From NCBI RefSeq assembly GCF_028864145.1, contig NZ_JARBHJ010000019.1, positions 1-44,916 of the forward strand: DNA of 44,916 bases, written 5' to 3'. This document shows positions 11,618 to 36,400 of the stretch, one piece after another (the first letter of the stretch is position 1; every line of letters starts with the position of its first letter). The notes beneath the pieces are model-generated. The model made no database searches. It saw only the letters and a list, made by a program, of their open reading frames with translations, and had not been told where the DNA came from. The stretch is from Actinotignum schaalii (lineage in GTDB: Bacteria > Actinomycetota > Actinomycetes > Actinomycetales > Actinomycetaceae). Both the position numbers and the translations under genes were made by a program.

Positions 11618-12675
11618 TGACTACTTCTCCGCTCTATCTTGCTGCGCTTGCCGTCGGGGCTCTCGGCGTCGAGATTGTCTCCACGCGCCAACCGTTTGTT
11701 GAGACGGAAGATTTTGTTTCCGGTTGTGTCCTTGATTCCCAGGGGCGCCACTGGATGGTTAAAGTTCCTCAGAATGGCACGGCGGCAACATCCTTAGAAG
11801 CCGAGGCGGCTCTGGCCCCCCAGCTTTTGGAAGAATTACGGGCCGGTCGCCTACCTTTCGATATCATGCGACCGGCCGGTTTTGTTGATGCGGATACCGG
11901 GGGCCGCGCGGTGGTCTACCCGGAGCCTTTTGGGCGGGCGCTGGTTTTCGAAGCCCTCGGTGAGGAAGAAGTACGGGAGATGGGCCGCACGCTTGCCGCG
12001 ATTCACAGTATTGATCGGGATGTGGTGGCTCGATCCGGGTTGCCTGTTTATACGGCTGGGCAGTGGCGTGCTCGGGTGCGGGCCGAGCTGGAGGCAGCCG
12101 ATCAGGAAACGTCCCTTCCCACGATTTTGCGCCAGCGCTGGATGGATGTGCTGGATAGTGACGAGGTGTGGGATTTTGAGGAAACGGTTGTCCACGGTGA
12201 TGTGGCTTCCGATAATTTCTTGTGGTCGAATGGCTCGGTTGCGAGCGTGCTCGGTTTTGGTGAGGCGCACGTGGGCGACCCGGCTCGGGATTTAGCGGCG
12301 ATGCTTGTTCTTGATGACGAACAGTGGCCGAGTTTTATTACGTCGTATGAGAATGCGCGCTCGGTTGAGCTGAGGGAAGCGGATTACACCCGTATTATTT
12401 TCACTTCGGAGTTCGCGATTATTCGCTGGCTCATGTACGGGATTCGTACGGGCAGCATGGAGATTAGGAACGACGCCGTCCAGATGCTCGGCGCGCTGGC
12501 CGAGGATGTACGTGAAGCCCCGGATTTGCTCCCCGCTCCCCCGGCATCGGAGTCGGCTTTCAGTGAAAGTGCTTCCGATGCCGAGGCGAGCGGTGCGGAT
12601 GAGCTGACCGGGGAGACCGCGGTTACTGCTCCTGATTGGGCAGACCCGCACGAAGCAGAATTTCCTCCTCGCTGA
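11617..12675 (+). CDS. Phosphotransferase (APH/choline kinase-like) family protein with altered metal site
   Basis: The 352-residue protein has a kinase-like fold of the aminoglycoside/macrolide phosphotransferase superfamily: a divergent N-lobe (MVKVPQNGTAATSLEAE), the catalytic loop VVHGDVASDNFLW (HGD at about 193-195) and the following VLGFGEAHVGDPARDLA segment. In typical members the latter begins I-D-W/F, where Asp binds magnesium; here it is Gly (GGT), so activity is doubtful unless this is a sequence error. The last 60 residues are Ser/Ala/Glu-rich and probably disordered. The substrate is unknown; the family alone does not imply antibiotic resistance. The 3' end overlaps convergent adnB by 53 bp. 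GTG start. Confidence 0.8.
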   Translation: MTTSPLYLAALAVGALGVEIVSTRQPFVETEDFVSGCVLDSQGRHWMVKVPQNGTAATSLEAEAALAPQLLEELRAGRLPFDIMRPAGFVDADTGGRAVVYPEPFGRALVFEALGEEEVREMGRTLAAIHSIDRDVVARSGLPVYTAGQWRARVRAELEAADQETSLPTILRQRWMDVLDSDEVWDFEETVVHGDVASDNFLWSNGSVASVLGFGEAHVGDPARDLAAMLVLDDEQWPSFITSYENARSVELREADYTRIIFTSEFAIIRWLMYGIRTGSMEIRNDAVQMLGALAEDVREAPDLLPAPPASESAFSESASDAEASGADELTGETAVTAPDWADPHEAEFPPR

Positions 12676-15600
12676 GCTTCCCGGCCCGTAGTTCCTCAGC
12701 TCTGTTTCCCCGCAGGTATACGAAGGAAGCGTCGATGTCCGCAAGGGGAACGCCGTGTGCCCGGGACCAGGCAAGCCGGTAGAGGGCGAGCTGAAGTTCG
12801 CGGGCAGCTTTCGTTTCCCCGTAGGGGCGCCGCCCGGATTTCCAGTCAACGATAGTCACCGGGGCACGCCCGGGTACCTGGGAGGTGTCGAAAACAGCGT
12901 CGAGCGCACAGTGGACAACATGCCCCCCGATAACCACACCGAGTTGCTGTTCGATGGCGAGCGGCGGGTAGCTCGCCCATTCGGATGCTTCGTAATTCTC
13001 ATACATATGCACGATTTCTTCCGCGCTGAGAACAGGATCATGTTCGAGGGGATCCTCGCTATCAATATTGAGCACGGCGGCGCTCGCGTAACTATCAGCG
13101 ATTTTTTCGTGCAGGATCGTCCCCAAACGCGCAGCTCGCGAGGGCTGGCGGGGAACCGGGCGGCGTTTATTGCGCAGGTATTCTTCCCGGTGTTCAGCCC
13201 GGTAGACCAGCTCGGTGGCGGTGTAATGCCCGCCGGCCTCGGTGTAGTCGGCTGTTTCCGCTTGCTGTTTGCGTGCGATGAGCCGGCCGATGACCTGGGT
13301 GAGTTCGGCGCGCTGGTCAGCATCGAGAGTTTCCGCCTCGATAGGGAGGCTGCGGGCCAGGTCACGCGGCCAGGCAAGCAGATCGGGCGCCTCGAAATAA
13401 TGCGGTACGGGTTCGAGCACCGGCGGGTATACAACTTCTTCCCCGAAAATATCGACGAGCTCATCCACGCTCAAGCTGTCCGGTGCAATATCCGGGAATC
13501 CTTCCGGCAGCTTTACGGACGAAACCGTAGCAGGCGAGGCAACCAGCGTGAGCTCTCCGCTAGCGGCAGCTTCCCGCACCGCGCTCAGGAAGCACGAGGG
13601 AGGCCGCGTTTCAACGCCCAGCGCGTTCTCACTCCCATCTGCCGGGGTATCGGCAGCGTTCTTCTTCGCTTGCTTTTCTGCCTTCTGTACCCGGCCGGAC
13701 ACATCCTTCTCATCTTGGAAACAGTATCCGGCCAGCAGGAGCTCCCGAGTGGACCGGGTAAAGGCCACGTAGGCAAGGCGCCGCATTTCTTCACTTTCGT
13801 GGTACGCCAATTCGTCAAGGAACCGCGCATAGGTATTCGCGACGGTGATTTTGTCGAGATTACGAGCACCGGCCAGCGTAAATTGGGGCAGATACGAGTA
13901 GTCGGTGCGCAGGGGGTACGGGAAAATACCGGTATTGCGCGGCCAGGATTTCACACCTTCGGTCACTTCGGAGAACTGGCCTTTCACGAGTTCTGGTACG
14001 ACGACGAGGTCACGCCATTCCAAACCTTTGGCAGCATGAACAGTCATCAATTGGATAACGCCGGGGATAACATCGACCGCGCTCTCCACCCGCGGAATAT
14101 CTGCCCCGGATTCTTCTTCCCCGCCGTGTTCTTCTGTTTCCACCACATCGAGCCATTCCACGAATTCGCGCATACCGCGCTGACTATCACCGTGCGCATA
14201 GGTGCGAGCCAGGGAGATGAATTGGTCGATGGAGGTACGGACCCGCTGCCCGCCTTCGCTGCGGGTAGCGGCCGCGGTATCGAGGCCGAGCAGGTGAACG
14301 GCCCGATCAATCTGATCGCCCAAAGCATTATGCAAACCGGAACGCAAGGATGCGAGGGTGGCGTTCAAGCGCCGCAGGCGTTCCCAGCCACTGCCGGAGA
14401 ATTCGGCTTGCGCGGATCGGGCTGCTTGCCCGAGCTCAGCTTCGCCCGTTTCCGCCAGCTCCGGCGTATCCACGTGCTCACCCGTGCGCTCACACGGAGT
14501 CGTCGGGGTGCCCGCCAGGAGCATAAGCGCGTGGAGTGCCTCACCCAAATTGGCTTCATCACGGCTGTTGAGAAGGGGTTGCACGGTGGCAGGTGTACCT
14601 TCTGCGCCAGGCTCGCCCTCGTGGACGGGTGCGGCGTCGTCGCTTATAAAACTGGCACGCACGTCGCTATTGACTTTGGTGACCGCAGCAGCCGCGTAGC
14701 GACGCGCCCAGCGCGAAAGCGCGCGAATATCTGCCACCCCGATATTCCAGTGGGCGAGTAAACGCGCGAGGAGGTCGCCGCGGGCCGGGTTGGCAGCCAG
14801 GCCGAGTGCGGCCCGCATGGTAATGATTTCCGGGCGCGCCACCAGTGATTCCCCGCCCACGATCTCAAAGGCGAGGGGCTGGGGCACTGTGCTTCCGGGG
14901 TGAGCAGCAGATTCCCTGGCTAGCTGGCTATTGAGTTCCCGCAGGGCGGCGGCCATCATATCGATATAGGAGCGTTTACGGCACAAAACCGCGATCTCTG
15001 CTCCGCGCGGTGCTTCACCGCGAGCGCGCCGCTCTTCGTTTTCCGCGGCCACCCGCTCGCGTACCGCGAGGATATGCCGGGCGATACTCCGGTAGGAGTC
15101 TTCGCGCAGCAGGGTACGGATTTCGCTGACGCGCCCGGCTCCCGCTCCCGGCCGTTCCCGCAGCCGCAGCGGCGCGATATCTGCACTATCCCCCGCGCTC
15201 CCCGCGGTTTCCGCGTTTGTTGGAGCGGGCCTGAATTCGGGTGGGAAATTCGGGTGGTCGCGATCTTCGCGTAGGAACGTGTCCCGTTCCAAGGGAGTGG
15301 CGACGGCGTTGCCTGCAGCGAGCACGGCTCGATCATTACGGAAAGCGGTGGAGAGCTGGAGTTTCTCTACGTGCCCGAAAATGCGGGTGGTGTGGCGTGC
15401 GAAGTTGGTGAGGGCCGCGGCGCTGGCGCCTCGCCACCCGTAGATGGCCTGGTTCGGGTCCCCTACCGCGGTGATGGATAGGAAGCCGTCTCGTTTCGCG
15501 GTGAGTGCGCTGAGGAGGAACTGTGCCTGATTTTCATCTGTGTCTTGATATTCGTCGAGCAGGATCAGGCGATAGCGGGAGGAGATTTCCTTAGCGATTT

Positions 15601-16465
15601 GGGGATACCGGGTCATGATGCGCCCGGCGATAGCGACCTGGTCGGCGAATTCGGTAACGTTGAGTTCTTTTTTGAGCTGGAGGTAGGCCTCCACTAGCCC
15701 GAGCACGACCTGTTGCTGTTTGGGTACTGCCACTCCCCCTTTCAAATTGGTGAATTTCTTGGAGGCATCCGGGTACCAGCAGCGCGCGCTCATGATGCGT
15801 GTTGAGTCGGCACACAGCGTTTCCAGGGCTTGATCCTGAGCGGTGAGGAAAGTGCGGGCTTCTGCTAGCTCCACGCCGTTGGTGAGGATTCCTTGGGCGA
15901 AGGTGAGGGCGTCGTTGATGAGGCTGGAACGGCTGCGTTCGGCAAGGACCGCGGTGCTAGCGCTGCTGGGCAGGGCGCTCACAACCTGGTCCATGAGCTG
16001 GACGCGTTCGGCATCGGTGATGAGGCGGGCGGTGGGATCGGCTCCGACCAGCATGCCGTAGGCTCCGGCGATGTCGTTCGCGAAAGAGTTGTAGGTGGAT
16101 ATCACGGGCCTGCGCATGGCGCTTCCCGCGTTGCTTCCTTCCGGGGCGAGGAGGCCGAGTTTTTCCAAGCTGGTGTTAACTCGTTCAGCTAGTTCTCCGG
16201 CGGCTTTCCGGGTGAATGTGAGGCCAAGAACCTCATCCGGGGTGACGTTGCCGCAGGCGAGGTGGTAGGCAATCCGGTCCACCATGGTTTTTGTTTTACC
16301 CGATCCGGCTCCGGCAACCACGAGGATGGCCGGCGCGGTGGAGGTGATAACCCGGCGTTGTTCCGCGGTGGGTGGGTGTTCTTGGCCGGCGAGGATGCGG
16401 TCTAGAGCGGCATCGGGTTCCGCTGGCGCCTGTGCTTTAACGTATTCGTGGGATGTGGGTGTCAT
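12623..16465 (-). CDS. adnB: AdnB-like UvrD/Rep helicase-nuclease subunit
   Basis: AdnB is one subunit of the actinobacterial AdnAB motor-nuclease that resects double-strand breaks. The 1280-residue protein has superfamily 1A helicase motifs: Walker A VVAGAGSGKTK (49-59), motif II LLDEYQDTDENQ (about 302), motif III VGDPNQAIYGWRGA, motif V MTVHAAKGLEWRDL and motif VI RRLAYVAFTRSTREL. A RecB-type nuclease domain ends the protein: GTILHEKI, CALDAVFD, VDWKSGR (about 1206) and a QLALYRLA segment, so both activities look intact. Its ATG overlaps the adnA stop (ATGA), so the subunits are coupled. An alternative call would be a stand-alone UvrD with a PDDEXK domain; the paired gene argues for AdnB. 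Confidence 0.92.
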   Translation of the reverse strand: MTPTSHEYVKAQAPAEPDAALDRILAGQEHPPTAEQRRVITSTAPAILVVAGAGSGKTKTMVDRIAYHLACGNVTPDEVLGLTFTRKAAGELAERVNTSLEKLGLLAPEGSNAGSAMRRPVISTYNSFANDIAGAYGMLVGADPTARLITDAERVQLMDQVVSALPSSASTAVLAERSRSSLINDALTFAQGILTNGVELAEARTFLTAQDQALETLCADSTRIMSARCWYPDASKKFTNLKGGVAVPKQQQVVLGLVEAYLQLKKELNVTEFADQVAIAGRIMTRYPQIAKEISSRYRLILLDEYQDTDENQAQFLLSALTAKRDGFLSITAVGDPNQAIYGWRGASAAALTNFARHTTRIFGHVEKLQLSTAFRNDRAVLAAGNAVATPLERDTFLREDRDHPNFPPEFRPAPTNAETAGSAGDSADIAPLRLRERPGAGAGRVSEIRTLLREDSYRSIARHILAVRERVAAENEERRARGEAPRGAEIAVLCRKRSYIDMMAAALRELNSQLARESAAHPGSTVPQPLAFEIVGGESLVARPEIITMRAALGLAANPARGDLLARLLAHWNIGVADIRALSRWARRYAAAAVTKVNSDVRASFISDDAAPVHEGEPGAEGTPATVQPLLNSRDEANLGEALHALMLLAGTPTTPCERTGEHVDTPELAETGEAELGQAARSAQAEFSGSGWERLRRLNATLASLRSGLHNALGDQIDRAVHLLGLDTAAATRSEGGQRVRTSIDQFISLARTYAHGDSQRGMREFVEWLDVVETEEHGGEEESGADIPRVESAVDVIPGVIQLMTVHAAKGLEWRDLVVVPELVKGQFSEVTEGVKSWPRNTGIFPYPLRTDYSYLPQFTLAGARNLDKITVANTYARFLDELAYHESEEMRRLAYVAFTRSTRELLLAGYCFQDEKDVSGRVQKAEKQAKKNAADTPADGSENALGVETRPPSCFLSAVREAAASGELTLVASPATVSSVKLPEGFPDIAPDSLSVDELVDIFGEEVVYPPVLEPVPHYFEAPDLLAWPRDLARSLPIEAETLDADQRAELTQVIGRLIARKQQAETADYTEAGGHYTATELVYRAEHREEYLRNKRRPVPRQPSRAARLGTILHEKIADSYASAAVLNIDSEDPLEHDPVLSAEEIVHMYENYEASEWASYPPLAIEQQLGVVIGGHVVHCALDAVFDTSQVPGRAPVTIVDWKSGRRPYGETKAARELQLALYRLAWSRAHGVPLADIDASFVYLRGNRAEELRAGKLSEEEILLRAGLPNQEQ

Positions 16466-19400
16466 GAGAAAATCCGTCCTTCTTGCGTGAGTGGACTAAT
16501 GGATTGAACCCGGTCATTGGCTTCTTCCAAACTGGGAGAGACCGGCACGAAGCCACTCACCGCGATCTGGGCGGCGCTGCGTACCCGGTCTTCCGCGCGA
16601 GCCGCGCTCACCTCATCAAGAGGCTCTTGGGTGAGAACGGACGGGCTGTGCTGTTTCTTCAAGAAATTATGCGGGTGGACATATACAAGTTCCGCGCCGG
16701 CAGGGGTGTGTTTTTCACTCAGGGCCCACTGGTAGACCTGGAGCTGGGCGTGGTCCTCAGCCTGCGCCTCGCTGGGCTTATATTTTCCGGTTTTCAGGTC
16801 AATGACCCGCGCGCCTTCCCCGCGATTGACGAGGCGGTCAATAGAACCGGATACCCGTACGGGCGGGGTGCCGGGTAGCTCACGGCTAATCCGGCGTTCC
16901 ACGCCTAGCAAGGTGTCATCCCGGTGGGAATCAAAATAGATATAGAGGTTATCGACCATGTCACTGGCTTGGTCGAAGAGGAGTTTGTCGTAATGGGTGG
17001 GAGTTTCGGATAGTTTTTCAGGCCAGAGTTCTACCAGTCGGGCGTGCATCTGCTCCTGGTTGGGTTCCTCAGCGAATTCTTCGGCGATACGGTGAACCAG
17101 GGTTCCGATGGAGGCGCTCTCAGTGCCTTCTTCCGAGCGCAGGCCCACCGCGGAACAGAATCCGTCAAGCGGGCAGGCAAGAAGGGATTCCACCGCTGAG
17201 GGACTCACGTAGACCGGACCGGGCACCGCTGCTTCGGTTGAGGTGGTGAGCTCATCCATCCAGGTGTGTGGATCCGCCGCGTTAAATCCGGCGCTGCGCA
17301 TTTTCTCTAGAGCTGCCCGGGCGAAATCGCTGGATTCTCCCCCGGCGCGTAGTGCCCGGCGCAGTACCCCAACGGTTTCCTCACTGCTGAGGAGCGCGGG
17401 CGGAATCGGTTGGGCAACGAGGGGCCGGTGCCCAAGGGGAAGAGTCATACCCCATCGCGGATCGCTGAGTGAGCGCACGGTGCGTGGAAGATTGGAACCG
17501 CTCCCACCGGCTCCCGCGCCCGCGCTAACACTTGCTCCGGCTGAATTTTCCGAGATGTCAAAGCCGAGCAGGGGGAAGAAGCGCGAAGGGGTATCTCCCA
17601 TGCTGTCCGTGGTGGTCACGAGGAGACTGCGCCGGGAACGCGTAACCGCGAAATGTAATTGGCGTAGTTCATCAGCGATGACCGCCGCCGTGGAATCGCG
17701 ATAGACCGCGCCTCCGTTAGCCGCACTTCCTGTGGTAGCAGCACTTCCTCCACTAACCGCGGTTCCCGCACTAGCCGAACCGTCTGCACCAGCCGCGGCG
17801 GCCGAACTGGCTCCGCCGGTAAACCTTCCGGTCACAAGTTCACTCAGGAGTCCGGTACCCGTGAGGGCATCGCGCGGGCGCGGATTGGGCCATACTCCAT
17901 CCACCACGTGCATGAGGACAATATGATCCCATTCGCGCCCTTGGGCTCCCGCGGGAGTGAGGAGGGAAACGCTATCGGCTTGCGCGCCACCGCGCGCAAT
18001 GGAATCTTCGGGGAGTTCTTGGGAACTCACTCCCTCCAGGAGAGTATCCACCGTGACGGCTGGGTCACGGTCAGCCATGCGTTGCGCCACCCGGAAGAGA
18101 GAAATAACCGCATCGAGATTCCGGTTGGCCCGATCAGCATCCGGGCCGTGCCCGAGGGCTAATTGTTGCCATTCTTCGGATTTTCCAGCGCCCTCCCACG
18201 CGGCCCACAGCACTTCTTCCGCTTGCATGGCGCAGGCCTCCCCCGCCTCCCGGATATGAGCGAGCAGGGCCCGCAAGGGTTCGAGTTCCGCTGCGGTAGG
18301 CCCACCGCACCCCAGGACGGCTCCGGTGAGAAGTTCTGCTTCACTGCCACGCTGCCCGGAGAGGAGGGCTTGGGCGCGCAGCCACCTGCCTACCCGTTTA
18401 ATTTCGAGGGGATCCATTCCGATCATGGGTGAGGCAAGTAATGCCGGGATATCAACGCCTTCAGGGGTGGCGAAGGCATGCGGGCCGCTGGTGAAGGCAG
18501 CGCGGAGGAGGTCAAAGAGTGCGGCGACTGCCGGTTCGCGGTGGAGGGGTTCATCGCTAGCCTGGGGTGCTACCGGTATTCCGCGCCGCACGAGTGCGTC
18601 GCGGATCCGCCCGTGTTCGCTGCGTGCACGGGTAAATACCGCCATCTGCGCGTAGGGGGTTCCGGTGCGCAGATGTACTTCTTCCAGGTAGGAGGCCACG
18701 TAGGCAATTTCTTCTTCCATGTGGGCGAAGCTGGCCCCGCGCAGCGCATCATTCCACGGATCGGTTACCGCATCACCGCCACTGCCATGATCCGAAAGTT
18801 CCGGCCCGGCTCCGCGGTGGGCGTGCACGCCGCCGCCCACCGGGAGGGCCTGCTCAATGCGCTGGGCTTGGCTAATGAGAACGGAACCGCCGCGGTGCCG
18901 GACGTTGAGGTATACAAGATCCGCATCTAGGCCGCGGGGAGCGGGATAGGCAAGATCACCGGGGAGGGAATGCACCCCACCACGGAATCCTTGGACCGCG
19001 CTATCGGGATCACCGGCCACGATGATCCGTGTTCCCTGATCGCGCATCACACCTAAGAGAGGAAGCATAGAACGCGGTGCGTTCTGGGCATCATCAACAA
19101 GGACCATTGCCCAACGGGGCCGCGGTACCGGGACCGTGCGGCCCGCTGCCGCCAGATGTTCTTCCCAATCCGCAAGCATATGGGTAGCCGCACCGACGAG
19201 CTGGCTGTGATCAAGACGATCCGGGCTAGCGGCCGAACCGGCCAGCGCATCCCCCAGAGTGCGCACCTCATCGTAACGGCGCATAAGCGCGCCGGCCAGG
19301 TGCCACATCTGCGCTTGGAGTTCGGGCACGCTGCGGTTTTCCGCCCAGGCTTCCAGCTGGCCGGCATCCAGGCCGAGTTCGCGAGCGCGGGTGATAAGGT

Positions 19401-19872
19401 TACGCAGCTCTTGGCGTAATCCGGGAAGATCACGTACATCCTCTGTAACAAAATCGGGGAATTGTATCCCCGAGTATTCATCACTGAGAATCTCCCGCAC
19501 GATACGATCCTCATCAGGACCGGAGATCAATTCCGGTTTTTCCCGGCCCAGCGCTTGGGCGTAGCGCTGCACGATGGCGTAGGCGAAGGCAGAAAGAGTG
19601 CGGACCTCCAGGTTTTCGGGGCGCACCCCGGCCGCCAAGGTGAGCAGGTGTTGGAGGCGCGCTGCGGCGCGCCGATCCTGGGTGATCACCGCAATATTTC
19701 CCTCACGGAGAGCCGCGCGGGCGATATGCGCGAGGACGGTGGTTTTCCCGCTTCCGGGCGCGCCAATAATGCTCAGCGTGCCCGGGGCTAATCCGCCCGC
19801 GGACCGTGCCAGAGCCGCGCTGACCGCTGCCTCTTGCGAGGCATCGAGTTGTTCGACGATGCTGTCCACCAC
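16462..19872 (-). CDS. adnA: AdnA-like helicase-nuclease subunit
   Basis: AdnA is the partner of AdnB. The 1136-residue protein has Walker A GAPGSGKTT (37-45), a motif II that reads LVDDAQN (about 256) instead of the usual D-E-x-Q, a motif III AGDPDSAVQGFRGG, a motif VI FAVTRSRRSLLVTT, and a C-terminal RecB-type nuclease domain (SGSIDRLVN, IDLKTGKYK at about 1023, QLQVYQWAL). An Ala/Gly/Ser-rich insertion of about 40 residues (about 684-724) sits in the helicase core before motif VI and looks like a flexible loop. GTG start at 19872, with AAAGGA just upstream. The promoter contains a damage-type element at 19906-19928. Confidence 0.92.
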   Translation of the reverse strand: MVDSIVEQLDASQEAAVSAALARSAGGLAPGTLSIIGAPGSGKTTVLAHIARAALREGNIAVITQDRRAAARLQHLLTLAAGVRPENLEVRTLSAFAYAIVQRYAQALGREKPELISGPDEDRIVREILSDEYSGIQFPDFVTEDVRDLPGLRQELRNLITRARELGLDAGQLEAWAENRSVPELQAQMWHLAGALMRRYDEVRTLGDALAGSAASPDRLDHSQLVGAATHMLADWEEHLAAAGRTVPVPRPRWAMVLVDDAQNAPRSMLPLLGVMRDQGTRIIVAGDPDSAVQGFRGGVHSLPGDLAYPAPRGLDADLVYLNVRHRGGSVLISQAQRIEQALPVGGGVHAHRGAGPELSDHGSGGDAVTDPWNDALRGASFAHMEEEIAYVASYLEEVHLRTGTPYAQMAVFTRARSEHGRIRDALVRRGIPVAPQASDEPLHREPAVAALFDLLRAAFTSGPHAFATPEGVDIPALLASPMIGMDPLEIKRVGRWLRAQALLSGQRGSEAELLTGAVLGCGGPTAAELEPLRALLAHIREAGEACAMQAEEVLWAAWEGAGKSEEWQQLALGHGPDADRANRNLDAVISLFRVAQRMADRDPAVTVDTLLEGVSSQELPEDSIARGGAQADSVSLLTPAGAQGREWDHIVLMHVVDGVWPNPRPRDALTGTGLLSELVTGRFTGGASSAAAAGADGSASAGTAVSGGSAATTGSAANGGAVYRDSTAAVIADELRQLHFAVTRSRRSLLVTTTDSMGDTPSRFFPLLGFDISENSAGASVSAGAGAGGSGSNLPRTVRSLSDPRWGMTLPLGHRPLVAQPIPPALLSSEETVGVLRRALRAGGESSDFARAALEKMRSAGFNAADPHTWMDELTTSTEAAVPGPVYVSPSAVESLLACPLDGFCSAVGLRSEEGTESASIGTLVHRIAEEFAEEPNQEQMHARLVELWPEKLSETPTHYDKLLFDQASDMVDNLYIYFDSHRDDTLLGVERRISRELPGTPPVRVSGSIDRLVNRGEGARVIDLKTGKYKPSEAQAEDHAQLQVYQWALSEKHTPAGAELVYVHPHNFLKKQHSPSVLTQEPLDEVSAARAEDRVRSAAQIAVSGFVPVSPSLEEANDRVQSISPLTQEGRIFS

Positions 19873-19905: not shown

Positions 19906-19928
19906 ACCATACGAGAGGCTTACGACAA
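19906..19928 (-). promoter_or_regulatory. RecA-NDp/PafBC-type promoter of adnAB
   Basis: On the minus strand TTGTCG (19928-19923) is followed by TAA, eight bases, and the -10 box TATGGT (19911-19906). This spacing and the TTGTCR...TAnnnT pattern match the LexA-independent DNA-damage promoter known from mycobacteria and controlled by PafBC. Predicted initiation near 19899 gives a 27-base leader with a ribosome binding site before adnA. Function is inferred from the motif. Confidence 0.65.
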
Positions 19929-19944
19929 AATTTTTTGTCGTAAG
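19919..19944. repeat. Perfect palindrome between adnA and DUF3107
   Basis: CTTACGACAAAA (19919-19930) and its exact reverse complement TTTTGTCGTAAG (19933-19944) are separated by TT. Each arm supplies the upstream element of one of two divergent promoters. It is unlike a terminator because it lies in a divergent promoter region. Confidence 0.9.
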
Positions 19945-19957
19945 AGGCCGCTACTGT
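19935..19957 (+). promoter_or_regulatory. RecA-NDp/PafBC-type promoter toward DUF3107
   Basis: The other arm of the palindrome gives TTGTCG (19935-19940), TAA, eight bases, and -10 box TACTGT (19952-19957), with the same spacing as the adnA promoter. Initiation near 19964 would leave a leader of about 100 bases before the DUF3107 ATG. Confidence 0.6.
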
Positions 19958-19994
19958 GGAGGCATCGCGAACGCTACTGTGAACGCATCGCGAA
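19949..19994. repeat. Tandem 23-bp duplication carrying a -10 box
   Basis: Copy one (19949-19971) and copy two (19972-19994) both begin CGCTACTGTG and end GCATCGCGAA; they match at 21 of 23 positions. The TACTGT -10 candidate is present in both copies, but only the first is at the right distance from the TTGTCG element. Confidence 0.9.
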
Positions 19995-20065
19995 GATGAG
20001 CTATCAGGCTCCTTCACGGCGGTGCCTTATGGCCCCGCATCCCTAGAGTATTCAAGGAGAAACAT

Positions 20066-20290
20066 ATGGAAATCGTGATTGGTTTTCGTGAAACTACCCG
20101 TGATTTGATTTTGGAAACGGATGCCTCGGTTGAGGAATTGCGCGCACTTGTCGATGCCAGCCTGGGTGGAGAAGGCAAGCCTTTGCGTATTACCGCGAAG
20201 AAGAATCGTGAAGTCACTATTCCCGCCGATGCTATTGCTTTCGTGGAAATCCGCGAACAGGATACCCGCCGGGTTGGCTTCGGTCTCTAG
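20066..20290 (+). CDS. DUF3107 protein (Rv3208A/TB9.4-like)
   Basis: A 74-residue protein beginning MEIVIGFRETTRDLILET and ending with a RVGFGL tail, which matches the actinobacterial DUF3107 family of small cytoplasmic proteins of unknown function. The ATG at 20066 has a strong AAGGAG ribosome binding site. It sits between divergent adnAB and a DEAD-box helicase gene; as I recall, mycobacteria keep a similar neighbourhood, with the DUF3107 gene near rhlE. Its promoter shares a palindrome with adnA, which suggests a link to the DNA-damage response; the biochemical role is unknown. Confidence 0.9.
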   Translation: MEIVIGFRETTRDLILETDASVEELRALVDASLGGEGKPLRITAKKNREVTIPADAIAFVEIREQDTRRVGFGL

Positions 20291-33124: not shown

Positions 33125-33147
33125 ATCGTACGTGAGGCCTACGACAA
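33125..33147 (-). promoter_or_regulatory. RecA-NDp/PafBC-type promoter of brkB-manC
   Basis: On the minus strand TTGTCG (33147-33142), TAG, eight bases, and -10 box TACGAT (33130-33125). The T-rich lead-in TTTTTGTCGTA resembles the adnA arm closely, and GCCTCACG in the spacer also resembles the adnA spacer GCCTCTCG. Initiation would fall on the GTG start. Confidence 0.6.
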
Positions 33148-36377: not shown

Positions 36378-36400
36378 AGTCTACCGCGGGGTTACGACAC
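36378..36400 (-). promoter_or_regulatory. RecA-NDp/PafBC-type promoter of glyA-folD-xthA
   Basis: On the minus strand GTGTCG (36400-36395; one mismatch to TTGTCG), TAA, eight bases, and -10 box TAGACT (36383-36378). Initiation near 36371 gives a leader of about 36 bases that contains the glyA ribosome binding site. An imperfect palindrome (CGCCACAA / TTGTGTCG, 36395-36413) overlaps the upstream element. Confidence 0.5.

Follow-up and report, generated by a model that had tools for sequence, protein, structure and literature searches.

The window analysed here is a 44,916-nucleotide stretch of DNA from an Actinotignum genome (G000; 2.2 Mb in 77 contigs). Between the start codons of adnA (19872, minus strand) and DUF3107 (20066, plus strand), the 52 bases at 19906-19957 contain two TTGTCG-TAA-N8-TAnnnT elements in opposite orientations that point outward. 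On the minus strand, TTGTCG (19928-19923) is followed in the direction of adnA by TAA, eight further bases and TATGGT (19911-19906); on the plus strand, TTGTCG (19935-19940) is followed in the direction of DUF3107 by TAA, eight bases and TACTGT (19952-19957). The preliminary description of this DNA had placed these outward-facing elements in the arms of a perfect 26-bp palindrome. The sequence confirms both directions as well as the arms (19919-19930 and 19933-19944), which are 12 nt each and 100% complementary, but the palindrome is not perfect throughout since the two nucleotides at its centre (TT) are unpaired. The features of the window are as follows.

12623..16465, minus strand: adnB, 1280 aa, overlapping the adnA stop (Pfam and PDB matches)
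16462..19872, minus strand: adnA, UvrD-like helicase and PDDEXK nuclease, 1136 aa (Pfam and PDB matches)
19899, minus strand: predicted transcription start of adnAB, giving a 27-nt leader (from the genome-wide start-codon peak)
19906..19911, minus strand: -10 element TATGGT of the putative adnAB promoter (sequence and alignment)
19919..19944, no strand: palindrome with both -26 elements inside, 12-bp perfect arms around TT
19923..19928, minus strand: -26 element TTGTCG of the putative adnAB promoter, identical in 5/5 aligned Actinotignum genomes
19929..19934, no strand: AATTTT, 6-bp A/T spacer common to both -26 elements (sequence and alignment)
19935..19940, plus strand: -26 element TTGTCG of the putative DUF3107 promoter (sequence and alignment)
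19950..19995, plus strand: tandem duplication of 23 bp within the leader of DUF3107; the -10 element is repeated in it, the -26 element is not (sequence)
19952..19957, plus strand: -10 element TACTGT of the putative DUF3107 promoter, TACGGT in A. sanguinis and A. schaalii
19964, plus strand: predicted transcription start of DUF3107, giving a 102-nt leader (from the genome-wide start-codon peak)
20066..20290, plus strand: DUF3107, 74 aa, relative of TB9.4 (7RUR) and of 9NIP (PF11305 and PDB matches)
33125..33147, minus strand: exact TTGTCR-N11-TAnnnT element before brkB, with the start codon 6 nt past the -10 element
36378..36400, minus strand: putative promoter element GTGTCG before glyA-folD-xthA-like genes, with G replacing the first T

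The PDB matches of AdnA and AdnB are mycobacterial helicase-nuclease chains in the AdnAB entries 6ppj, 6ppr, and 6ppu, and AdnA is 82%, 83%, and 91% identical to its counterparts in A. schaalii, A. sanguinis, and A. timonense, respectively. The brkB, manC-like, glyA, folD, and Exo_endo_phos (xthA-like) genes were named by Pfam. The DUF3107 protein scores 73.9 bits against PF11305 (cut-off 27) and has a predicted fold of strand-strand-helix-three strands (pLDDT 85.5). It matches the PDB relatives TB9.4 (7RUR), 7RUS, and 9NIP over its full length, the last with 3.4e-18. The entry 9NIP is named 'Small RNA-Binding protein (SRB)'; RNA binding is taken here from this molecule name alone, and our literature search found no papers tied to RNA binding by DUF3107 or SRB.

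Recurrence of the element and the PafBC machinery

Both arms carry the two parts that define a RecA-NDp promoter, namely a -26 TTGTCR and a -10 TAnnnT with 11 nt between them. In the window, TTGTCR-N11-TAnnnT occurs three times against 0.17 expected, and none of 100 shuffles reaches three. The motif and spacing that had been assigned to the RecA-NDp type are thus exact in both directions; the same element had also been reported before brkB-manC and glyA-folD-xthA, where the former copy is exact but the latter is inexact.

Matches in G000 as a whole were counted against the reversed pattern as a control. TTGTCR-N11-TAnnnT is little enriched (17 matches versus 12), and the pattern was for this reason refined to TGTCGTAR: TGTCGTAR-N8-TAnnnT gives 20 matches versus a single control match. 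The wider TGTCG-N11-TAnnnT gives 48 matches, many of which must be due to chance because the control gives 32. Behind the 20 strict sites lie, among others, recA, priA, sbcD, dnaX, two RNase_T-type exonucleases, and a C5 cytosine methylase, and also mshD, brkB, and glyA-folD-xthA. The element was therefore found at recA and at other repair genes, where the preliminary description had proposed to look for it. Further genes that come in with the wider set are radA, thyA, a PD-(D/E)XK (RecB-family) nuclease, a UvrD-like helicase, argS, and RNase PH. Genes unrelated to repair lie downstream of the element too, including an MscS channel, an acyl-CoA dehydrogenase, an ABC ATPase, a PepO-like peptidase, and several genes without a family; one strict site (C20:11361), situated within an open frame of the opposite strand, may be a chance match.

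An ATG or GTG followed by at least 100 open codons is present 29 or 30 nt from the 5' end of the motif at 22 of the 48 wider sites, as compared to 31 start codons at the other 53 offsets scanned taken together. These two offsets place the start codon 6-7 nt after TAnnnT, the position expected if a real promoter gives rise to leaderless transcripts. At most of the 22 leaderless-type sites an A/T-rich stretch immediately precedes TGTCG, and an A stands two bases after TGTCG at 91% of them.

Two further occurrences deserve mention. The TGTCGGGGAGTTTAAGTACCGT motif is found at G000:C32:1318 and C54:4746 within a pair of almost identical repeats, each on a short contig, by eye perhaps a mobile element. 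Beside a LexA-type gene (54859), a near-match TTGTCGTAA-N8-TTTGAAT on the minus strand (G000:C22:54794-54817) faces away from that gene.

Both pafB and pafC, whose presence the preliminary description had left to be checked, were recovered in G000. A PafB relative of 338 aa has matches with E ~1e-4 to the fused PafBC 6sj9 and to one chain each in 7p5x and 9fnd, where the second chain bears the name PafC; a nine-sequence profile built from the protein encoded next to PafB finds the PafC of 7p5x with 8.8e-10. On contig C33, pafB-pafC is followed directly by a HelY-like helicase gene (by eye) with no tat genes in between, an arrangement that we compared with the mycobacterial gene order.

PafBC promoters and the control of adnAB by PafBC are already known from mycobacteria. 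In the portions of the literature available, the M. tuberculosis motif is given as TGTCGG-N10-TA-N3-T, with the same spacing as the element of the window (PMC8151990), AdnAB falls within the M. smegmatis PafBC regulon (PMC8223512), and PafBC is described as heterodimeric, its motif being non-palindromic (PMC6789036). Judged against these partial sources, the Actinotignum system resembles mycobacterial RecA-NDp/PafBC promoters in its TGTCG-N11-TA-N3-T sequence of identical spacing, in a predicted regulon with recA and adnAB, and in the presence of pafB and pafC; it likewise resembles mycobacterial adnAB in its homologous subunits and PafBC-type promoter. It differs in that an A/T tract followed by TGTCG(T/G/C)A(G/A) is typical, in that many start codons stand 6-7 nt after the -10 element, and in the head-to-head placement of two promoters 6 bp apart. 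With high confidence, we read the adnA-facing element at least as a PafBC-type promoter, and it is very likely, if slightly less so, that a PafBC-type (RecA-NDp) promoter is the best reading of the elements in both directions.

Conservation and a second divergent pair

DUF3107 was found in 140 of 151 genomes of the family, and among the 110 for which upstream DNA was read, adnA is divergent from DUF3107 in 82 (tblastn), unlike mycobacterial adnAB. When spacers of 5-17 were scanned between adnA and DUF3107 in these 82 genomes, spacer 11 alone was enriched, with 16 genomes toward adnA and 6 toward DUF3107, as compared to none or one for every other spacer. Conservation of the DUF3107 promoter across the family, which we had anticipated, is not borne out, the motif facing DUF3107 in only 6/82 genomes. 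These six comprise five Actinotignum genomes, including G000, and G031 of another genus, in which a motif faces each gene and the two are ~240 bp apart.

The adnA-side motif is present in 16 of the 29 genomes with a PafB match of E ~1e-15 or better (13 lack it) and in none of the other 53, an association inflated by relatedness and by distance from the query. It is partly phylogenetic because the PafB E-value falls with distance from the query; counted with a single Actinotignum, it amounts to 12/25 versus 0/53 (Fisher p 1.2e-7).

Within Actinotignum, the promoter pair is kept in five of six genomes. Both -26 elements and both TAnnnT elements are intact in all five aligned genomes, G000 included, and 48 of the 52 columns of the block are invariant, the four variable columns falling in the 6-bp centre (two), the N8 spacer, and the free base of TAnnnT. 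This conservation is weak evidence because the block is no more conserved than the 64 columns on its adnA side, which are partly coding (61/64 invariant). The DUF3107 leader is more variable, with 67/109 columns invariant and a 23-bp indel; the second unit of the duplication at 19950-19995 is present in three of the five genomes and missing from A. sanguinis and A. schaalii. The sixth genome (G105, of the same genus in the taxonomy used) encodes a PafB relative that is 38% identical, lacks the motif between adnA and DUF3107, and shows no genome-wide enrichment of it (24 matches versus 35 in the control). Its PafBC may read another -26 sequence.

The preliminary description had called a palindromic arrangement serving divergent genes unusual, and the fixed geometry is indeed rare. 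Head-to-head promoters separated by 6 bp occur at three distinct sites in 2 of 396 genomes of the order, a sample that excludes the other Actinotignum genomes, and the reversed pattern gives no such pairs among the same 396. In the titles, abstract beginnings, and some passages of open-licence literature, we found no published head-to-head PafBC promoters that share one A/T tract. G000 holds two of the three sites, 19906-19957 of the window and the following pair.

G000:C4:44339-44390, divergent: second pair, between a gene for a RecB-family PD-(D/E)XK nuclease and a TrmI gene

At this second pair each of the two start codons is found 6 nt past its -10 element. Among the 48 wider matches in G000, these two are the only divergent pairs less than 200 bp apart; a pair at dnaX is 231 bp apart. 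The third site is in G192, from another family, beside a gene whose start resembles that of a RecB-like nuclease (by eye).

The two pairs of G000 differ in what has been retained. The RecB-side element is intact in five of five genomes (G000 and four relatives), whereas the trmI-side -26 element, intact in A. sanguinis, is altered in G017, A. timonense (G071), and A. schaalii (G089). Both -26 arms are thus kept in 5/5 genomes at adnA|DUF3107, and the symmetry as a unit is lost in 3/5 at RecB|trmI. The altered trmI-side elements suggest that selection at RecB|trmI seems to keep one promoter rather than symmetry.

Proposed function of the divergent arrangement

The available parts of PMC11804915 describe PafBC as responding to single-stranded DNA, which activates it, and as needing RNA polymerase in order to bind promoter DNA. 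It is positioned between sigma domain 4, touched by PafC, and the promoter, where PafB touches the -26 element. By analogy, single-stranded DNA arising from DNA damage would activate PafBC, which would adapt the RNA polymerase carrying the housekeeping sigma factor to the -26 TTGTCG and -10 TAnnnT elements, and transcription would begin at ~19899 on the minus strand for adnAB and at ~19964 on the plus strand for DUF3107. Each arm would form a complete asymmetric promoter, the two overlapping back to back. The palindrome would then be a by-product of the close head-to-head placement of two -26 elements, each non-palindromic, across a shared 6-bp A/T tract, and it is probably not itself an activator site. 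Lying upstream of both predicted starts, it was also rejected as a transcript hairpin or terminator.

RNA polymerase holoenzyme usually covers ~50 bp upstream of its own start. The predicted starts are separated by 65 bp, and since each complex would cover ~50 bp upstream, two complexes would overlap on the palindrome. As a consequence, one direction would probably be occupied at a time, and adnAB and DUF3107 would be co-induced through competing, mutually exclusive initiation that alternates between them. We regard mutual exclusion of two polymerases on the pair as fairly probable.

Other readings of the site were considered. The preliminary description had suggested that one bound activator complex drives both genes, and more generally the palindrome could be an operator through which a single symmetric regulator (a repressor or activator acting as a homodimer), or else one PafBC complex spanning the two arms, controls adnAB and DUF3107 together. 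The inverted symmetry of the 12-bp arms, the centre-to-centre distance of 12-13 bp between the -26 elements (slightly more than one helical turn), and the retention of both elements in 5/6 genomes of the genus speak for such an operator. Nevertheless, the half element recurs singly elsewhere in G000 without a palindrome, keeping the motif (and the A/T tract at most leaderless-type sites) at a fixed distance from the -10 element and often from a start codon, and the sister site is altered on its trmI side in 3/5 genomes while its RecB side is intact in 5/5. As far as the excerpted sources go, PafBC is moreover heterodimeric, has a non-palindromic motif (PMC6789036), and requires RNA polymerase to bind a promoter (PMC11804915), and one complex driving both genes is further opposed by predicted starts just 65 bp apart. 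We thus consider a single operator quite improbable, and competition between two polymerases appears likelier than one activator complex serving both genes.

Alternatively, the adnAB direction alone could be functional and the DUF3107-side motif a chance or decaying copy, as might be expected from a motif that faces DUF3107 in just 6/82 genomes, from a sister RecB|trmI site degenerate on one side in 3/5 genomes, and from the long DUF3107 leader (102 nt). Yet the DUF3107-side TTGTCGTAA and TAnnnT are intact in 5/5 Actinotignum genomes despite the variable leader behind them, and G031, in another genus, carries a motif toward each gene; this alternative is unlikely, if less so than a single operator. 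Control of adnAB and DUF3107 by LexA as part of an SOS response is the least probable reading, and a highly improbable one. A LexA-type gene is present in G000 and AdnAB is a DNA-break enzyme. The mycobacterial-type SOS box is TCGAAC-N4-GTTCGA. With up to two mismatches, it has three matches in the window, no more than chance (1.8 expected), and none near 19906-19957, in agreement with the earlier assignment of the element to PafBC rather than LexA; the consensus is mycobacterial-type and may not be that of this genus.

On the reading as two competing PafBC-type promoters, a PafBC-type response with exact geometry would extend to Actinotignum, with a predicted target set and many leaderless starts. 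DUF3107, a small protein family, would be placed under a predicted damage response in Actinotignum and G031, its divergent order with adnA being common. The link of DUF3107 to break repair that had been drawn from the shared palindrome is weak: the motif does face DUF3107 in these genomes, but in only 6/82 overall, and the PDB relatives include SRB. Two sigma-adapted promoters 6 bp apart at two nuclease genes of one genome would also offer a natural test of how promoters share DNA. More tentatively, and in our estimation doubtful, the 6-bp back-to-back geometry could be a selected device that admits one PafBC-polymerase complex at a time, firing either the nuclease or its partner, and that would thereby fix the induced ratio (adnAB to DUF3107, RecB-family nuclease to trmI) and cap nuclease output. 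Were this true, and were DUF3107 to bind RNA, the switch would link the resection of DNA ends with a response at the RNA level.

The gap itself was allowed to vary in a search of the 151 family genomes, which returned 36 rows in 27 genomes. We inspected the left flank of every row; the 36 rows represent 30 loci and three further places, the rest being the opposite strand of rows already read. Five of six Actinotignum genomes have a pair at gap 6, and pairs with both -10 elements also occur at gap 27 (G079) and gap 28 (G008). The GC-rich pair in G008 is probably due to chance, and the divergent pair in G079 led us to reject a 6-bp gap as a universal rule. The G079 pair lies on contig C4 between genes that by eye are response regulator-like and membrane protein-like.
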